From Bacteroidota bacterium (GTDB lineage Bacteria > Bacteroidota > Ignavibacteria > Tepidaquicellales > Tepidaquicellaceae), in NCBI GenBank assembly GCA_018266835.1, contig JAFDZP010000002.1:1153302-1217301 (forward strand): 64,000 nucleotides of DNA. The letters are read 5' to 3'. Below are positions 56,410-64,000 of the stretch, one piece after another; the first letter of the stretch is position 1, and every line of letters begins with the position of its first letter. Under the pieces are notes generated by a model, which saw only the letters and a program-made list of their open reading frames with translations, had not been told where the DNA came from and did not search any database. A program made the translations under genes and the position numbers.

Positions 56410-56955
56410 TTAATCTCCCGTACTTTGCCAAAATTGTTCAATTTCAATCAATAAGTACTTATTATTTATTAACTCCTTTATTCCCAAAATTACTTTTTTA
56501 TAATCATTATAGGTTTTAATATCAACCATTTTTTCAAATTTACCAATTTTTTCATAAAAAATTTCTTTTCCAACTTCTTTCTTTAGAACCTTTAATAATT
56601 CACTATCGATTGGAGGATGAATAAATTCAATTAGTTTAGAATTCCCTAATCCTCCCAAATATACAGCAGTTTTTAAATAAATATTTATAATCTTTGCAGC
56701 CCATATTAAAGGTAATCCCGATTTCTTTTTACGAATTTTTTTCTTTACTAAAGATTTTACATTTTTTTCATGCCATTCATTAAATTCTTCCTCTTCAATT
56801 TTTGTAGTATCGGATAAAATTCGATCAAAACGCTTTTCTAATAACGAATAAATATCTTTTCTTGCTTTTATTGGGCATCCTGAACGCGTAGAAGAAAGTG
56901 CAGTCCACATTGCGAAATTTTGTATGATGTCTTTTCTGATTTTATTGTGCTTCAT
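56410..56955 (-). CDS. Unrecognised partner protein of the AAA-TOPRIM ATPase
   Basis: 181 residues, family not recognised. Basic and largely helical by eye, with a Lys-rich stretch (KNVKSLVKKKIRKKKSG, about 65-81) followed by LPLIWAAKIINIYLKTAVYLGG and the patch EFIHPPIDSELLKVLKK, which looks conserved. Conserved-looking Trp, His, Asp and Arg (WTALSSTRSGCP near the start) could make an active site, but no known nuclease motif is visible. Its ATG lies 10 bases after the ATPase stop, so the two form one transcript. It is more AT-rich than the flanking genes. Could be the effector or regulator of a defence pair. Confidence 0.78.
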   Translation of the reverse strand: MKHNKIRKDIIQNFAMWTALSSTRSGCPIKARKDIYSLLEKRFDRILSDTTKIEEEEFNEWHEKNVKSLVKKKIRKKKSGLPLIWAAKIINIYLKTAVYLGGLGNSKLIEFIHPPIDSELLKVLKKEVGKEIFYEKIGKFEKMVDIKTYNDYKKVILGIKELINNKYLLIEIEQFWQSTGD

Positions 56956-56965
56956 AATTAGATTT

Positions 56966-58630
56966 TTATCGAATTAGTTTTAACAATTTTTCAATTTCTT
57001 CTTCGATTTTTTTTAAAACTACTTTTTGATTATCTTTATCCATTACATCACAAATATGACTGCATAGTTTAGTTTTATCTAATTCTCTTATTAAACTTTC
57101 CGCGCCGTAATCATCAACTTTAATTCTTTCTTTGTAAAAATCATTTTGACTAAAGTTAGATGGCAAAAACAATAAATTTTCAATTCCTTTTTTATAAAGA
57201 GTGTTGACCTCGTTTTTTTCCATTCGTCTTACAAATAAATTTCCTAAATCTTCTTCAAATTTATTAGTATCACTATCATAAAGAAGTATTGTTTTATTTT
57301 TCAACATTGAAGGATTTGAGGTATAGTGATTTTTAGCGTTATCCAAAGCCTTTACACCAGTATATTCAGGATTCCCTTTTCCGTTTAATTTTCCAATCCA
57401 TCTAAATTCCAAACCTATACCTCTTTTTTCAAAAACCTCAAGAGCTTTATTGAAATATTTTTCATCTGTTTCTCCCTCAAGAAGTATTATAGTTTTATCT
57501 GAATTTATATGATAATTAACATTGAATGCCTCTTGAACAATTTTCTCATTTGTCCATCCATAAAATTCAGGTTCATTTGAAACAACAATTTTACCCTTAT
57601 CATCTTTTTTGAGAACTACGACCTTGTCGTTTTCTCTATTAGAATTATGTATTACAAACGGAGAGTGAGTTGTAACAATTAATTGAGATGTTTGAAGTCC
57701 ATCATTATCTGTAAATAATTTTTTAAAGAAAGTAAGTATTTTCAATTGCCATGTAGGGTGCATACTTATTTCTGGTTCATCTATGAGCACTAAAGCTCCT
57801 CTAGTTGTCTCTTTATTTTTTAGCAAGAAGCTACCTCTAAATACAATTTGTTTTTCTCCTGAACTTAATTCATTGATACCCATTTCTCTACCATTTTCTT
57901 CAAATATTACCTGTTTTACATTATTTTTCGTTTTAATAGTTTTATATTTCTTCTCAGGAAAAATAAATTTGAACGCATTTGCAAATCTATTTATTCTTAT
58001 ATCTATTTTATCTCTATTTACAGGCAAACCTTCGTTTTCTCTTCCCCATTCTGCAAATTCAGTTGCATCAATAGTTTGAATGTCGACAAAAAGTTGAGTG
58101 ATTTCTGAAGCTAAATTACTGTTTGAGCGTTCACTTTCTTCGACAATGTTATCTATATTTAATGCTGTAATATTATAAATCTCGTTAGACGAGAAATTAA
58201 TTTCTGCACTAGAAAAAATAGCCATAAATATTCTACGGGTTTCATCCACAGCTAAGGCCTCCCCTGCATATGTGTCCGAACCATTGACAACTCTCATTCT
58301 ATTCCAAATATTAGAAATACTAAAATCTATCTGAATTTGTAGAATATTATTTTTTTCTAAATTTTTAAAAAGCCCACTTCTAGTTCCGTTTTTACTTAAA
58401 GTTCCGATTTCTATTTGTGATAATTCAATTTCTGTATATAATTTTTCATTTTTCTCTAACGCCGAAAAGGTTGAGAATTTATATAAAACTTCTAATAATA
58501 AGGATTTTCCGACGCCATTTTCTCCTGCTATAATTATAGTATCTACTGTATCTCCATTTTTGTTTGTAAAATCTAAGGATAGATTCCCAAAGAGAAAATG
58601 ATTTTCAAAAGTAATTTTTCTTATTTTCAT
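56966..58630 (-). CDS. AAA ATPase with TOPRIM domain, OLD-like
   Basis: 554 residues from ATG 58630 (MKIRKITFENHF); an upstream ATG at 58699 would add 23 residues before the usual first strand. ABC-type ATPase: Walker A GENGVGKS (36-43), signature LSSGEKQ (255-261), Walker B ALVLIDEPE (279-287), switch His 322 (THSPF). TOPRIM domain: E385 in LLEGETDE and the DSD pair D452/D454 in LLYDSD. This order matches class 1 OLD nucleases and the ATPase-TOPRIM proteins of defence systems (Gabija GajA, fused PARIS-like). No UvrD-like GajB is nearby; the partner is the 181-residue gene. Likely DNA-linked ATPase and nuclease in phage defence; not proven. Confidence 0.9.
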   Translation of the reverse strand: MKIRKITFENHFLFGNLSLDFTNKNGDTVDTIIIAGENGVGKSLLLEVLYKFSTFSALEKNEKLYTEIELSQIEIGTLSKNGTRSGLFKNLEKNNILQIQIDFSISNIWNRMRVVNGSDTYAGEALAVDETRRIFMAIFSSAEINFSSNEIYNITALNIDNIVEESERSNSNLASEITQLFVDIQTIDATEFAEWGRENEGLPVNRDKIDIRINRFANAFKFIFPEKKYKTIKTKNNVKQVIFEENGREMGINELSSGEKQIVFRGSFLLKNKETTRGALVLIDEPEISMHPTWQLKILTFFKKLFTDNDGLQTSQLIVTTHSPFVIHNSNRENDKVVVLKKDDKGKIVVSNEPEFYGWTNEKIVQEAFNVNYHINSDKTIILLEGETDEKYFNKALEVFEKRGIGLEFRWIGKLNGKGNPEYTGVKALDNAKNHYTSNPSMLKNKTILLYDSDTNKFEEDLGNLFVRRMEKNEVNTLYKKGIENLLFLPSNFSQNDFYKERIKVDDYGAESLIRELDKTKLCSHICDVMDKDNQKVVLKKIEEEIEKLLKLIR

Positions 58631-58718
58631 TAATTCTATTATGCTATTTTTATTAAAGTAAATATTTTTACAATAAGATTGTGTGAAATTTAAAATCACT
58701 AAATTGAATTTTCTATTA

Positions 58719-59209: not shown

Positions 59210-60229
59210 ATGAAAAAAATCGGCATACTGTTCGGACAGGAAAAGACATTTCCTCAGGCATTTGTGGATAGAGTTAACTCGAAAAACGTTGACGGAATCA
59301 CAGCAGAGTTTGTAAACATCGATAAAGTTGTGCAGGGCGCGCCTTGCGGTTATGATGTTATCATCGATAGAATTTCACAGGACGTTCCTTTCTACCGCGG
59401 CTTTTTAAAAAACGCTGCTATAAGCGGAACTGCCGTGCTGAACAATCCTTTCTGGTGGAGCGCCGATGAAAAGTTTTTCAATAACGCACTTGCTACAAAA
59501 ATCGGAGTGCCGGTGCCGAAGACCGTTCTCCTTCCTTCGAACGAATTACCTCCTGATACAGCAAACGAGTCATTCAAAAATCTTGCATTCCCTCTTGACT
59601 GGGAAGGTATGTTTGATTACATCGGCTTCCCTGCTTATTTCAAACCTTTTGCAGGCGGCGGATGGAAAAACGTTTATCAGATCACCGATATGGAATCATT
59701 CTTCAAAGCATACAACGAAACCAAACAATTGGTCATGATGCTTCAGGAAGAAATTAAATTTGATTCATACTTCAGATGCTACTGCATAGACAGACAGGAT
59801 ATAAAAATTATGCACTACGAACCGCGCAATCCTCACCACTTAAGATACGTTGCAAACTTCGATGTAAGCCAGGAGCTTCTCGATACAATTAAAGATTATG
59901 TATTAAGAATTAACAACGGACTCGGGTACGATTTCAACACAGTTGAATTTGCAGTAAGAGACGGAATTCCGATTGCGATTGACTTCTGCAATCCTGCGCC
60001 TGATGCCGATAAAGCTTCAGTCGGTGAAGAAAATTTTGAGTGGGTAGTTGAAGCTGCTGCTAACATGGCAATAAGAAGAGCACAGAACCATAAAGACGGA
60101 CAGAACAATTTAACATGGGGGACATTTGTAAAGAACTTCGCTAACGACGGAGCAGTAAGCGCAGAGAACGTTCACGGCGGACAAGAAGGCCACGGTAAAA
60201 AAAAAGCTAAATCAGTAAAGAAGAAATAG
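59210..60229 (+). CDS. ATP-grasp superfamily ligase-like protein
   Basis: 339 residues, cytoplasmic. The N-terminal Rossmann-like pre-ATP domain (MKKIGILFGQEKTFPQAF) is followed by an ATP-grasp core with YFKPFAGGGWKNV (Lys and Gly-rich loop that binds ATP), VMMLQEEIKFDS, and the metal-binding stretch TVEFAVRDGIPIAIDFCNP. The C-terminus is a Lys-rich tail (GKKKAKSVKKK). Such enzymes join a carboxylate to an amine via acyl phosphate, for example in amino acid or peptide ligases. Substrate unknown; the next gene is another carboxylate-amine ligase. Confidence 0.82.
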   Translation: MKKIGILFGQEKTFPQAFVDRVNSKNVDGITAEFVNIDKVVQGAPCGYDVIIDRISQDVPFYRGFLKNAAISGTAVLNNPFWWSADEKFFNNALATKIGVPVPKTVLLPSNELPPDTANESFKNLAFPLDWEGMFDYIGFPAYFKPFAGGGWKNVYQITDMESFFKAYNETKQLVMMLQEEIKFDSYFRCYCIDRQDIKIMHYEPRNPHHLRYVANFDVSQELLDTIKDYVLRINNGLGYDFNTVEFAVRDGIPIAIDFCNPAPDADKASVGEENFEWVVEAAANMAIRRAQNHKDGQNNLTWGTFVKNFANDGAVSAENVHGGQEGHGKKKAKSVKKK

Positions 60230-60265
60230 TACTGAGTAGAAAGTAGTAAGTATAAAGTATTTGTA

Positions 60266-60289
60266 GAGACGCAAAATATTGCGTCTCTG
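60266..60289. repeat. Hairpin between the two ligase genes
   Basis: A perfect 10-bp stem AGAGACGCAA / TTGCGTCTCT with loop AATA. No T-run follows, so it is a weak terminator or a dispersed repeat; the two ligase genes could still share a message. Confidence 0.6.
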
Positions 60290-60407
60290 CGAAATAAAGA
60301 ATAGCAATACGTGTTTAGAATTCTAAATTCATAATTCTGAATTTTGAATTCCCGATGTTTTTCTTATCTTAGCAGATAAGAATTTTTAAAATAAAAAATA
60401 ACCCCGT

Positions 60408-61511
60408 ATGAAAAGCAAGCTTTTCACCTTAGGAATAGAAGAAGAGTTTCAGGTAATTGATCCCGTTACGCGCGAGCTGAAGTCACACATGAATCAGATA
60501 GTGACGACAGGGCAGTCGAAACTCGCTGATCAGATAAAACCTGAAATGCACCAGGCAGTTGTTGAAGTCGGTACGATAATATGTAGTGATATACACATGG
60601 CACGAGAGGAAGTTTCAAAGCTAAGAAAAGATATATCTGAAGTTGCTAAGGAATCGGGACTGCGAATTGCAGCTGCGGGAACGCATCCGTTCTCCCACTG
60701 GAAAGACCAGGAAATTACTGACCATCCGCGCTATCACGAAATATTAAATGAGATGCAGGAGACTGCAAGAGCAAATTTAATTTTCGGTCTGCATGTTCAC
60801 GTCGGTATTGATAACAGGGAAACAGGTCTGCAGCTAATGAATGCCGCAAGATATTTTCTTCCGCACATTTTTGCCCTGAGCACAAACTCACCGTTCTGGC
60901 TGGGAAGAAATACAGGTTTTCATTCTTACAGAACGAAAGTGTTTGATAAATTCCCTCGCACAGGTATTCCTGATTTCTTTTCAAGTCTTGCCGAATACGA
61001 AAGCTATGTAAACGTCCTTATAAAAACAAAGTGCATAGATAACGCAAAAAAGATATGGTGGGATATAAGATTGCATCCGTTCTTTGATACGCTTGAGTTC
61101 AGAATATGCGATGTGCCGATGACGGTAGATGAAACAATCTCTCTTGCAGCAATTATGCAGGCAGTGATTGCAAAGCTTTACAAACTGTTAAGAGCTAACT
61201 TAGGTTTCAGAATTTACAGAAGAGCTCTCATCATGGAAAATAAATGGAGAGCTGCAAGATACGGAATACACGGCAAGATGATTGACTTCGGAAAAGTTGA
61301 AGAGGTGGATTATAAATTTTTAATGCATGAGCTTGTGGGATTTGTAGATGACGTGCTTGGAGACTTGGATTCACGCGAAGAAGTTTATAATATTTTTAAG
61401 ATAATGGAAAACGGAACAGGCGCTGACAGACAGCTGAAAGTTTACGAAGAAACAAAAGACCTGAAGAAGGTTGTAGATTATATCATGGATGAAACCGTGA
61501 AAGGATTGTAA
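60408..61511 (+). CDS. Carboxylate-amine ligase, GCS2 (glutamate-cysteine ligase 2) family
   Basis: 367 residues, the usual length for YbdK-type enzymes. Core motifs: LGIEEEFQVIDP at the start, EVGTIICSDIHMAREEVSKLR, GLHVHVGI in the active site, SPFWLGRNTGFHSYRT and DTLEFRICDVPMTVDETISLA. The Glu cluster GIEEEF binds metal and nucleotide. YbdK makes gamma-glutamylcysteine weakly in vitro; the natural substrate of this family is often unknown. Same strand as the ATP-grasp gene. Confidence 0.93.
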   Translation: MKSKLFTLGIEEEFQVIDPVTRELKSHMNQIVTTGQSKLADQIKPEMHQAVVEVGTIICSDIHMAREEVSKLRKDISEVAKESGLRIAAAGTHPFSHWKDQEITDHPRYHEILNEMQETARANLIFGLHVHVGIDNRETGLQLMNAARYFLPHIFALSTNSPFWLGRNTGFHSYRTKVFDKFPRTGIPDFFSSLAEYESYVNVLIKTKCIDNAKKIWWDIRLHPFFDTLEFRICDVPMTVDETISLAAIMQAVIAKLYKLLRANLGFRIYRRALIMENKWRAARYGIHGKMIDFGKVEEVDYKFLMHELVGFVDDVLGDLDSREEVYNIFKIMENGTGADRQLKVYEETKDLKKVVDYIMDETVKGL

Positions 61512-61515
61512 TCAG

Positions 61516-61608
61516 ATTTTCCCCCTCCTCACTCGAGGAGGGGGATTAAGGGGGTGGTGGACAATTTAACCACCCCCCTGCCCCCTCCTTGAAAAGGAGG
61601 GGGTGAAC
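61516..61608. repeat. Inverted pair of family A C-rich repeats
   Basis: Left stem CCCCCTCCTC / GAGGAGGGGG (61521-61530, 61535-61544); right stem CCCCCTCCTT / AAGGAGGGGG (61581-61590, 61594-61603). Between them GGGGGTGGT (61550-61558) and ACCACCCCC (61569-61577) pair, so the whole can fold as a three-way hairpin. Lies between the ligase and aminopeptidase genes. Confidence 0.85.
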
Positions 61609-61647
61609 ATTTTTAAAAAACTAAAACAATAACTGACAAAATTATAC

Positions 61648-62691
61648 ATGAGTCAAATGGAAATTAACACGGAAGTTGACGCAGACCTTTTACCGGGGGC
61701 TTATAATGCTATTAACGTTTGCTTAAGACTTAAACCTGAAGAAAGAATTACAATTATTGCAGATAACGACGCTGCCGATATAGCAAGGGCTATGGAACAC
61801 GAAATAAAAAAAGTCGGAGCTGAATTTTCTACATTCATAATCGAAGATTATACACCAAGACCAATACCGGGTGACTTACCGCAGGTTATTCTTGATGACC
61901 TTGCAAAATCACAGGTGAGCATTTTTGCCGCCACACCGAAGATGGGTGAGCTTCGCTCACGCGCATCTATGACTTACGTTGTTGACGCCCATAAAATAAG
62001 ACACGGCCACATGGTTAACATCAACAAGCAGATAATGATGGAAGGCATGAGAGCAGATTTTATTAAAGTAGATAAAATAAGCCAGCGCTTAATTGATATT
62101 GCAAGCAAAGCAAAAATTATAAAACACACATCCGATAGCGGTACGGATATAACTGCAGAGTTCGTTCCTGAATTAAAATGGCTGAAAACATCCGGAATAA
62201 TTTCTCCCGATAAATGGGGCAATCTTCCAGGAGGAGAAATCTTCACATCACCATGGAATGTAAACGGAACGTTTGTCGTGGACGGAGTAGTAGGTGATTA
62301 CCTCTGCCAGAAATACGGCGACTTATTAAACACACCGTTAACGATTGAAATAAAAGATTCACGCATATCAAAAATGACATGTGATAATAAAGAGTTACTA
62401 GAAGAGTTCACAGCTTATACAATGACAGATGAGAACAGCAACAGAGTAGGCGAGTTTGCAATCGGAACTAACATAGCATGTAAGCATGTAATCGGAAATA
62501 TTTTACAGGATGAAAAGCTGCCTACGATACACATGGCATTCGGACATCCTTACTCTGCGCATACAGGCGCAAAGTGGAGCTCAACAACACACATTGACTG
62601 CGTAAGCATTAAGAACAGCATATGGTGCGATGAAATTCAGGTTATGGATAAAGGTGTGTTTATGCCGGTAATCTCGGAAGGTATTTTATAA
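61648..62691 (+). CDS. M29-type aminopeptidase-like protein
   Basis: 347 residues, no signal peptide. C-terminal metal site as in M29 enzymes: NLPGGEIFTSP (first Glu), VGEFAIGTN (second Glu), IHMAFGHPY (His), then TTHIDC (His-Asp). The N-terminal half holds the Rossmann-like domain of the family (RITIIADNDAADIARAM). M29 aminopeptidases release N-terminal residues using two divalent metals. In this cluster it might hydrolyse the product or a leader of the ligases; inferred from position. Shorter than typical thermophilic M29 members (about 400). Confidence 0.8.
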   Translation: MSQMEINTEVDADLLPGAYNAINVCLRLKPEERITIIADNDAADIARAMEHEIKKVGAEFSTFIIEDYTPRPIPGDLPQVILDDLAKSQVSIFAATPKMGELRSRASMTYVVDAHKIRHGHMVNINKQIMMEGMRADFIKVDKISQRLIDIASKAKIIKHTSDSGTDITAEFVPELKWLKTSGIISPDKWGNLPGGEIFTSPWNVNGTFVVDGVVGDYLCQKYGDLLNTPLTIEIKDSRISKMTCDNKELLEEFTAYTMTDENSNRVGEFAIGTNIACKHVIGNILQDEKLPTIHMAFGHPYSAHTGAKWSSTTHIDCVSIKNSIWCDEIQVMDKGVFMPVISEGIL

Positions 62692-62716
62692 ATTAATTTT
62701 AATCTTATTACTACTC

Positions 62717-63118
62717 ATGAAAAAATTACTTTCAATACTTATTGTTTTTACGTTCGCTGTTATAATTGTAAGCGGATGCTCTAAAAGTGATGATACAACT
62801 ATTACCAATACCGGCGGCAACCAGTTACCAACATCACCTTCAAGCCCTATTCCTTCCAATGGAGCAGTAGGTGTTACCGGCTTTGTAACAGCAACATGGT
62901 CATGCTCAGACCCCGATGTAAATGATACTTTACGATATGATGTTTACATAGGTTCAACTACTAACCCAAGTACCGTTGTTACTACAGGAACTCTGAACAA
63001 AGCAGCTGACTTAGGAATTGCAGGACCCAATACTCTTGTTTACTGGAAGGTAGTTGCAAAAGATAATCACGGCGGAGTAACAAACGGGCCGGTATGGAGC
63101 TACAGAACTGCACCTTAA
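62717..63118 (+). CDS. Small lipoprotein with fibronectin-like domain
   Basis: 133 residues. A signal peptide with lipobox VSGC (Cys 21) predicts lipid attachment. A Thr/Ser/Pro linker (about 22-48) leads to a single FN3-like sandwich (VTGFVTATWSCSDPDVNDTLRYDVYIG ends the first half; VYWKVVAKDNHGGVTNGPVWSY ends the second). No active-site motif. Located between enzymes of the ligase cluster on the same strand, 25 bases after the aminopeptidase stop. Confidence 0.85.
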   Translation: MKKLLSILIVFTFAVIIVSGCSKSDDTTITNTGGNQLPTSPSSPIPSNGAVGVTGFVTATWSCSDPDVNDTLRYDVYIGSTTNPSTVVTTGTLNKAADLGIAGPNTLVYWKVVAKDNHGGVTNGPVWSYRTAP

Positions 63119-63149
63119 CTTGCTTGTTTAATTTCATCAAGAACAAATC

Positions 63150-64000
63150 ATGATAAAAGAGCTCAGAGAGAAATACATAAAAGAATTTACTCAAGAAAAA
63201 TATGAGGAATTCATTAAGGATATAAACTCTGCTTACAAACCCATTGAATTCAAAATTTCGGAAACTCCGGTTTTTATTCCGGCAGAGCTTCGTGATGAGC
63301 TTTCAAATGCCTGTGTGGATATTCTGAATTTTTTAAAATCTGATAATTTTAAAGAGCTCTCTACAAACGCTATTCCTCCCGGACTTGAAGTCCCAAACCA
63401 GGGAGAACATGCCGAACTTCTTGCAATTGATTTTGCCGTTACAAAAGATGGGGAGGGAAATTATCTCCCGCAATTGATTGAGCTTCAGGGCTTTGCCTCT
63501 TTATTTTGCTATCAGGAATTATTAGATATGAAGATGCGCGCGCACTTTGATATTCCTGAAAATTACACTCACCGCTTCCGCGGACTTACACATGAAACAT
63601 ACCTTGAGAAATTAAAGAAGACTTTAATTGGTGATGAAAATCCTGAGAACGTAATTTTACTTGAGATAGAACCTGATAACCAGAAGACTGCAATTGATTT
63701 CTGGGCAACACAGGACTGGCTTGGAATAACTCCCGTTCATATAGGAGATATTACAAAAGAAGGAAAGAAATTGTACTACATGAAGGACGGCAACAAAACA
63801 CAGATAAAAAGAATTTACAACAGAGTAATTTACGATGAATTAAAAAACAGAAAAGACCTAAAGTATAATTTTAAGATAAGCGAAGACCTTGATGTAAAAT
63901 GGATTGCGCATCCTAACTGGTTCTTTAAAATCAGCAAATACATTCTGCCATTTATAAAAAGTAAGTATGCACCTGAATGTATTTTCTTAAGTGAGTTGAA
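63150..64000 (+). CDS. Probable ATP-grasp-like ligase (circularly permuted type), partial
   Basis: Starts with ATG at 63150 (MIKELREKYIKEF) and is open to the right edge (283 codons seen). I do not place it in a named family with certainty. Suggestive stretches are LPQLIELQGFASLFCYQELL, RIYNRVIYDELKNR and WIAHPNWFFKISKYILPFI, the last two resembling glutathionylspermidine-synthase-like and other permuted ATP-grasp proteins. No signal peptide. It follows the lipoprotein by 31 bases. If it is an ATP-grasp, the cluster has two plus the GCS2 ligase. Confidence 0.6.
   Translation, partial: MIKELREKYIKEFTQEKYEEFIKDINSAYKPIEFKISETPVFIPAELRDELSNACVDILNFLKSDNFKELSTNAIPPGLEVPNQGEHAELLAIDFAVTKDGEGNYLPQLIELQGFASLFCYQELLDMKMRAHFDIPENYTHRFRGLTHETYLEKLKKTLIGDENPENVILLEIEPDNQKTAIDFWATQDWLGITPVHIGDITKEGKKLYYMKDGNKTQIKRIYNRVIYDELKNRKDLKYNFKISEDLDVKWIAHPNWFFKISKYILPFIKSKYAPECIFLSEL

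Follow-up and report, generated by a model that had tools for sequence, protein, structure and literature searches.

Three ATP-dependent ligases and an exchangeable hydrolase in Ignavibacteria and related bacteria: a probable small peptide or amide pathway

Introduction

Amidoligases clustered with peptidases are already known as a kind of gene arrangement, and Iyer et al. are said to have described predicted amidoligase-peptidase gene clusters in 2009. The N-acetylglutaminylglutamine amide (NAGGN) osmolyte pathway employs an asparagine-synthase-like amidotransferase, a GNAT/ATP-grasp fusion and an M42 peptidase. Several ligases with related folds act on proteins or amines: RimK modifies ribosomal protein S6, PafA works with Pup, and YgiC/YjfC and GspS join a peptide to a polyamine; PuuD acts in putrescine use. 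We know of no physiological substrate for the YbdK family of carboxylate-amine ligases.

Here we describe a gene set found at the end of a stretch of 64,000 nucleotides from a member of the Ignavibacteria; this whole stretch is referred to below as the window. Like the NAGGN pathway, the set clusters an ATP-grasp ligase with an amidotransferase-type protein and a peptidase, but the amidotransferase type, the GNAT/ATP-grasp fusion and the M42 peptidase of that pathway are all absent here. It is similar to the predicted amidoligase-peptidase clusters (Iyer et al. 2009) in its linked ligases of different folds, accompanied by peptidases or GATase-like thiol hydrolases. The sets described in the related reports PMC2588565 and PMC4431377 differ from the three-ligase set, and no description of it was found in the literature searched, to which the main survey (Iyer et al. 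2009) does not belong. The first-pass annotation knew of no such pathway with exactly these members; within that literature, this holds for the set.

Methods

The neighborhood set comprised at least 80 loci from named genomes, whose ORFs were clustered. The class survey covered 100 genomes, which were searched at E 0.001, after which weak or fragmentary matches were set aside. AlphaFold models of ATP-grasp ligase 1 and ligase 2 were built on alignments of their class relatives.

Results

Layout of the Locus

Five genes make up the locus (Table 1), all on one strand as the first-pass annotation had it. The last of them is cut by the window edge. Extension to the right gives a complete gene of 397 aa (L009:6452-7645), which ends at window coordinate 64343, 343 bases past the edge; convergent ABC-transporter genes come next.

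Table 1. Genes of the ligase locus in window coordinates
Feature	Position	Strand	Description
ATP-grasp ligase 1	59210..60229	+	339 aa; Ddl/RimK/LysX fold (predicted)
GCS2 / YbdK-type (COG2170) carboxylate-amine ligase	60408..61511	+	367 aa; GhExE Mg/ATP signature
M29-type metalloenzyme	61648..62691	+	347 aa; short COG2309-like form
Small lipoprotein	62717..63118	+	133 aa; lineage-specific
ATP-grasp ligase 2	63150..64000	+	permuted glutathione synthetase/GspS/YgiC fold (predicted); cut by window edge

The first three genes are separated by gaps of 178 and 136 bases. The second gap contains, at 61515-61605, three adjoining strong hairpins (fold z-score -6.9) built of a GC-rich repeat. The rest of the genome has about 60 partial copies of this repeat; it is a dispersed REP-like element that may act on the gene set as an internal terminator or attenuator. 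The fourth gene had been called a lipoprotein, in agreement with its lipobox-like N-terminus (...SGC); its LPAM_1 match lies below threshold. Similar lipoprotein ORFs at the equivalent place occur in the sister family only, and the protein is probably a local addition, incidental to the ligase set.

On the opposite strand, window positions 56966-58699 encode a 577-aa protein that, read by eye, is OLD-family-like, with P-loop-type motifs and a Toprim-like C-terminus. The ORF next after it (56410-56955, minus strand, 181 aa) possibly forms with it a two-gene OLD-type defense pair, again as judged by eye.

The Three Ligases

The identification of the first gene as an ATP-grasp enzyme is borne out by its predicted structure, though no family scores over its cut-off. 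The scores against the RimK family (TIGR00768; 28.3 bits, E 1.1e-6, cut-off 143.4) and R2K_2 (PF18299; 17.5 bits, E 0.0039, gathering cut-off 26.2) are both too low, and the protein is far under the NCBIfam cut-offs of LysX as well as RimK. Conversely, its AlphaFold model (pLDDT 80) matches the Ddl/RimK/LysX ATP-grasp fold with an E of about 1e-13, the matched proteins being D-Ala-D-Ala ligases, RimK and LysX/ArgX. ATP-grasp 1 therefore has its fold in common with the RimK/LysX/Ddl ligases and differs from them in these subthreshold RimK, LysX and R2K_2 scores. Its conserved motifs are KPxxGGGW and AIDFxNPAPD. Searches of PDB sequences with the single proteins ATP-grasp 1, M29 and ligase 2 gave no match for any of them.

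The second protein is indeed a GCS2-type ligase, as evidenced by scores over the cut-offs of both Pfam PF04107 (E 7.5e-68, 229 bits against 21, full-length) and the NCBIfam carboxylate-amine ligase model PRK13515 (545 bits against 371). The GhExE Mg/ATP motif of GCS2 enzymes, defined in PMC2588565, is present in 68 of 69 homologues among the matches listed. These properties are shared with the YbdK/COG2170 ligases of PRK13515, from which the window protein differs in being tied to two ATP-grasp ligases. Against the glutamate-cysteine ligase models of cyanobacteria and plants, it scores far below cut-off.

The last gene had been described as ligase-like, and the complete protein supports this. 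A Pfam search of ligase 2 returned no family over cut-off; its AlphaFold model (pLDDT 91.7), however, is a full-length, circularly permuted ATP-grasp of the glutathione-synthetase/YgiC type. On this model, the gene at the window edge encodes a third ligase with the glutathione synthetase/glutathionylspermidine synthetase/YgiC fold. The VIA-align Z scores are 26.4 for YgiC, 25.9 for YjfC, 25.1 for human glutathione synthetase (2hgs), 24.6 for GspS and 22.4 for the E-64 ligase Cp1B; the matches (Z 22-26) extend across 325-366 residues at a sequence identity of about 10-15%. A predicted Mg site, D...ExQ, occurs in 37 of 37 loci among the matches listed, is invariant in the class alignment, and is located where the Mg-binding D...ExN of the five compared enzymes sits. 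The standard ATP-grasp Mg motif is ExN (PMC4431377). Because ligase 2 has ExQ instead, with Q113 in place of the asparagine, we claim the fold and not membership of a characterized family; it also differs from these enzymes in its low identity and its partner genes.

The Hydrolase Position

The assignment of the third gene as an M29-type aminopeptidase stands in part. Family membership is clear (PF02073; E 2.2e-17, 63 bits against a cut-off of 27), with the match in the C-terminal half of the profile (positions 205-356 of 406). Residues E197, E269, H295, H315 and D317 are invariant, and their equivalence to the metal ligands of AmpS is a reading of the motifs. However, the M29 profile matches not only the aminopeptidase AmpS (E 1.7e-5) but also the dioxygenase NicX (E 0.016), and aminopeptidase activity is therefore not certain.

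The M29 protein is not a core member of the set. It is one of three interchangeable hydrolase types found upstream of ligase 2. The space between GCS2 and ligase 2 is taken either by a class-I GATase-like protein or by an M29 protein, or is empty; the two occur together in 0 of 80 loci among the matches listed. In the class survey, a close M29 homologue was found in 17 of the 100 genomes and the GATase-like protein in 7, with no overlap. All these genomes contain the whole triad of ligases except one (G097), which is without ligase 2 and whose cluster lies at a contig end. The GATase-like protein has an invariant Cys102-His205-Glu207. The third type, Amidohydro_3, lies directly upstream of ligase 2 in all 7 of the f14/f15 loci examined, where the ligases themselves are dispersed; across 20 regions around scattered ligase genes, this was the only additional partner that recurred convincingly. 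The f5 and f7 loci examined have ligase 2 but no linked M29, GATase-like or Amidohydro_3 gene, so that the hydrolase may come from elsewhere or be dispensable.

The presence of three unrelated hydrolase-type proteins at one position suggests a common role, most simply the cleavage of a product. If the GATase-like protein donated ammonia instead, its replacement by M29 would be more difficult to explain.

Gene Neighborhoods in Relatives

The listed loci include those of cultured Mucilaginibacter, Dyadobacter, Pontibacter, Arundinibacter and Cryomorpha, together with Verrucomicrobia and Cloacimonetes MAGs. The arrangement ATP-grasp 1 - GCS2 - (hydrolase) - ligase 2 is seen repeatedly, in loci of Ignavibacteria, Bacteroidia, Verrucomicrobia (L123, on a 737-kb contig) and Cloacimonetes (L128). 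Among the matches listed, GCS2 lies near ATP-grasp 1 in 67 of 79 loci; of 80 loci, again among the matches listed, 37 have ligase 2, 50 a divergent PF00756 esterase, 27 an alpha/beta hydrolase just upstream of ATP-grasp 1, and 25 the GATase-like protein. The window itself has neither the esterase nor the upstream alpha/beta hydrolase nor the GATase-like protein.

A distant homologue of the alpha/beta hydrolase was observed in 35 of 36 triad genomes and in 12 of the 64 others, mostly unlinked; in the window genome it lies at G000:C6:130421-131137 (L150:6413-7138). We do not count it as a core member, since it is mostly elsewhere in the genome and could be an independent gene. In four Ignavibacteria loci (L073, L083, L086, L100), the set is preceded by a pyruvate:flavodoxin oxidoreductase-like gene, a dihydroorotate-dehydrogenase-like gene, or both.

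Inheritance of the Ligases

At E 0.001, the unfiltered count is 39 of the 100 class genomes for each ligase. Once weak or fragmentary matches had been set aside, 36 genomes had all three ligases, 5 had one or two, and 59 had none. ATP-grasp 1 and GCS2 occur together in 37 genomes, singly in 2 and 1, and not at all in 60 (Fisher p 8e-24, shared ancestry ignored); the corresponding counts for GCS2 and ligase 2 are 37, 1, 1 and 61 (p 4e-25, likewise with shared ancestry ignored). Over the ligase pairs, p ranges from 3e-21 to 4e-25 with genomes treated as independent. Genomes with and without the triad are mixed within families f1, f3, f10, f11, f13 and f17, which indicates several gains or losses of the three genes as a unit.

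Neither of the two findings that, according to the first-pass annotation, would have spoken against the pathway turned up: the ligases are linked in relatives, though scattered in several families, and the last gene is a ligase. In f10 they are tightly packed, with gaps of about 10-40 bases, whereas in f14, f15, f7 and f11 the three genes are mostly apart. As the co-occurrence persists where the genes are unlinked, neighborhood inertia does not explain it. The distances of the three ligase proteins correlate across 33 loci, with r of 0.81-0.86. An aerobic lifestyle was considered as an explanation of the distribution and proved uninformative, COX1 being present in 97 of the 100 class genomes.

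In the phylum outside the class (89 genomes), ATP-grasp 1 is present in all 17 genomes with ligase 2 and in all 18 with GCS2. ATP-grasp 1 also occurs without the other two ligases in a few genomes. Two genomes have both ATP-grasps without GCS2, and the loci L076 (Bacteroidota MAG) and L077 (Saprospiraceae MAG) combine ATP-grasp 1, the GATase-like protein and ligase 2, again without GCS2, as a reduced form of the set. GCS2 is thus not always needed, and its absence from some Saprospiraceae-type clusters indicates that the pathway has variants.

Discussion

We consider it probable that these genes specify a conserved, non-ribosomal route to a small peptide or amide, in which three ATP-dependent ligases act sequentially and a hydrolase trims or recycles the product. 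Making and trimming a small peptide had already been proposed for these genes and is still the best reading, but the core consists of three ligases rather than of two ligases with an aminopeptidase and a lipoprotein. We infer that a single common pathway joins them, in the order Ddl/RimK-like ATP-grasp, GCS2, glutathione-synthetase/YgiC-like ATP-grasp. GCS2 would most likely activate a glutamate-type side-chain carboxylate, and ligase 2 would add the last amine-bearing unit. The hydrolase encoded just upstream of ligase 2, whether M29, GATase-like or Amidohydro_3, may then trim or recycle the product, and the alpha/beta hydrolases of relatives may take off an ester or acyl group. In none of the three ligases was a residue identified that determines the substrate.

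The product is presumably a small molecule and not a modified protein. The RimK/LysX fold of ATP-grasp 1 would also suit a system in which the ATP-grasps and GCS2 tag a protein with an amino acid, glutamate or another, and the hydrolase removes this tag; the Pup ligase has its closest relative in GCS2 (PMC2588565), and RimK is opposed by the protease RimB (PMC12239564). Such tagging is nevertheless unlikely. In the 80 neighborhoods among the matches listed, neither a conserved small protein nor a target gene comes up repeatedly, the exchanged hydrolases come from families acting mostly on small molecules or free termini, and the fold of ligase 2 is nearest to enzymes that ligate small peptides. 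That fold, however, raises the question of amine assimilation or polyamine conjugation, in which ligase 2 would couple a polyamine to a peptide, and the GATase-like or M29 protein would free the amine or glutamate in the manner of PuuD. A polyamine conjugate was among the products first suggested, and its basis is fold resemblance, YgiC and YjfC being the top matches with GspS not far behind. We regard this as improbable, since ligase 2 is only about 14% identical to these enzymes in sequence, the scores of glutathione synthetases come close to theirs, and the fold does not give the substrate. Moreover, among the matches listed in the neighborhoods, no amine oxidase, aldehyde dehydrogenase or polyamine transporter recurs beside the genes.

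The near-equal score of the eukaryotic glutathione synthetase (2hgs) is what points to a glutathione-type low-molecular-weight thiol, for which GCS2 would make gamma-glutamylcysteine or a relative and ligase 2 the tripeptide. This is quite unlikely: a third ligase would be surplus, and GCS2 scores as PRK13515, far from the glutamate-cysteine ligase models. BshC, of bacillithiol synthesis, is present in 94 of the 100 class genomes, triad or not, so that no thiol vacancy is evident and the suggested thiol product is unlikely as a bacillithiol substitute. Finally, the three genes could be housekeeping ligases brought together by chance, as the gaps among the first three genes, one with a repeat element, might suggest. 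Block inheritance over families, co-occurrence even of unlinked genes, and a gene order that recurs in several phyla make this extremely improbable.

The small peptide or amide pathway may, more tentatively, yield a widespread and undescribed metabolite of Bacteroidota and their relatives, whose synthesis would take three ligases, each from another family, and whose turnover any one of three unrelated hydrolases could perform. If true, many environmental and cultured genera would contain a cofactor, osmolyte or storage compound of a new small-peptide class. Since the set is kept by inheritance across Bacteroidota, including the cultured genera named above, where ATP-grasp 1 lies with the other two ligases, the pathway predicts a metabolite visible to metabolomics. 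A branch of the YbdK family would thereby gain a biological role, as would a glutathione-synthetase-like family that has no Pfam model over cut-off.
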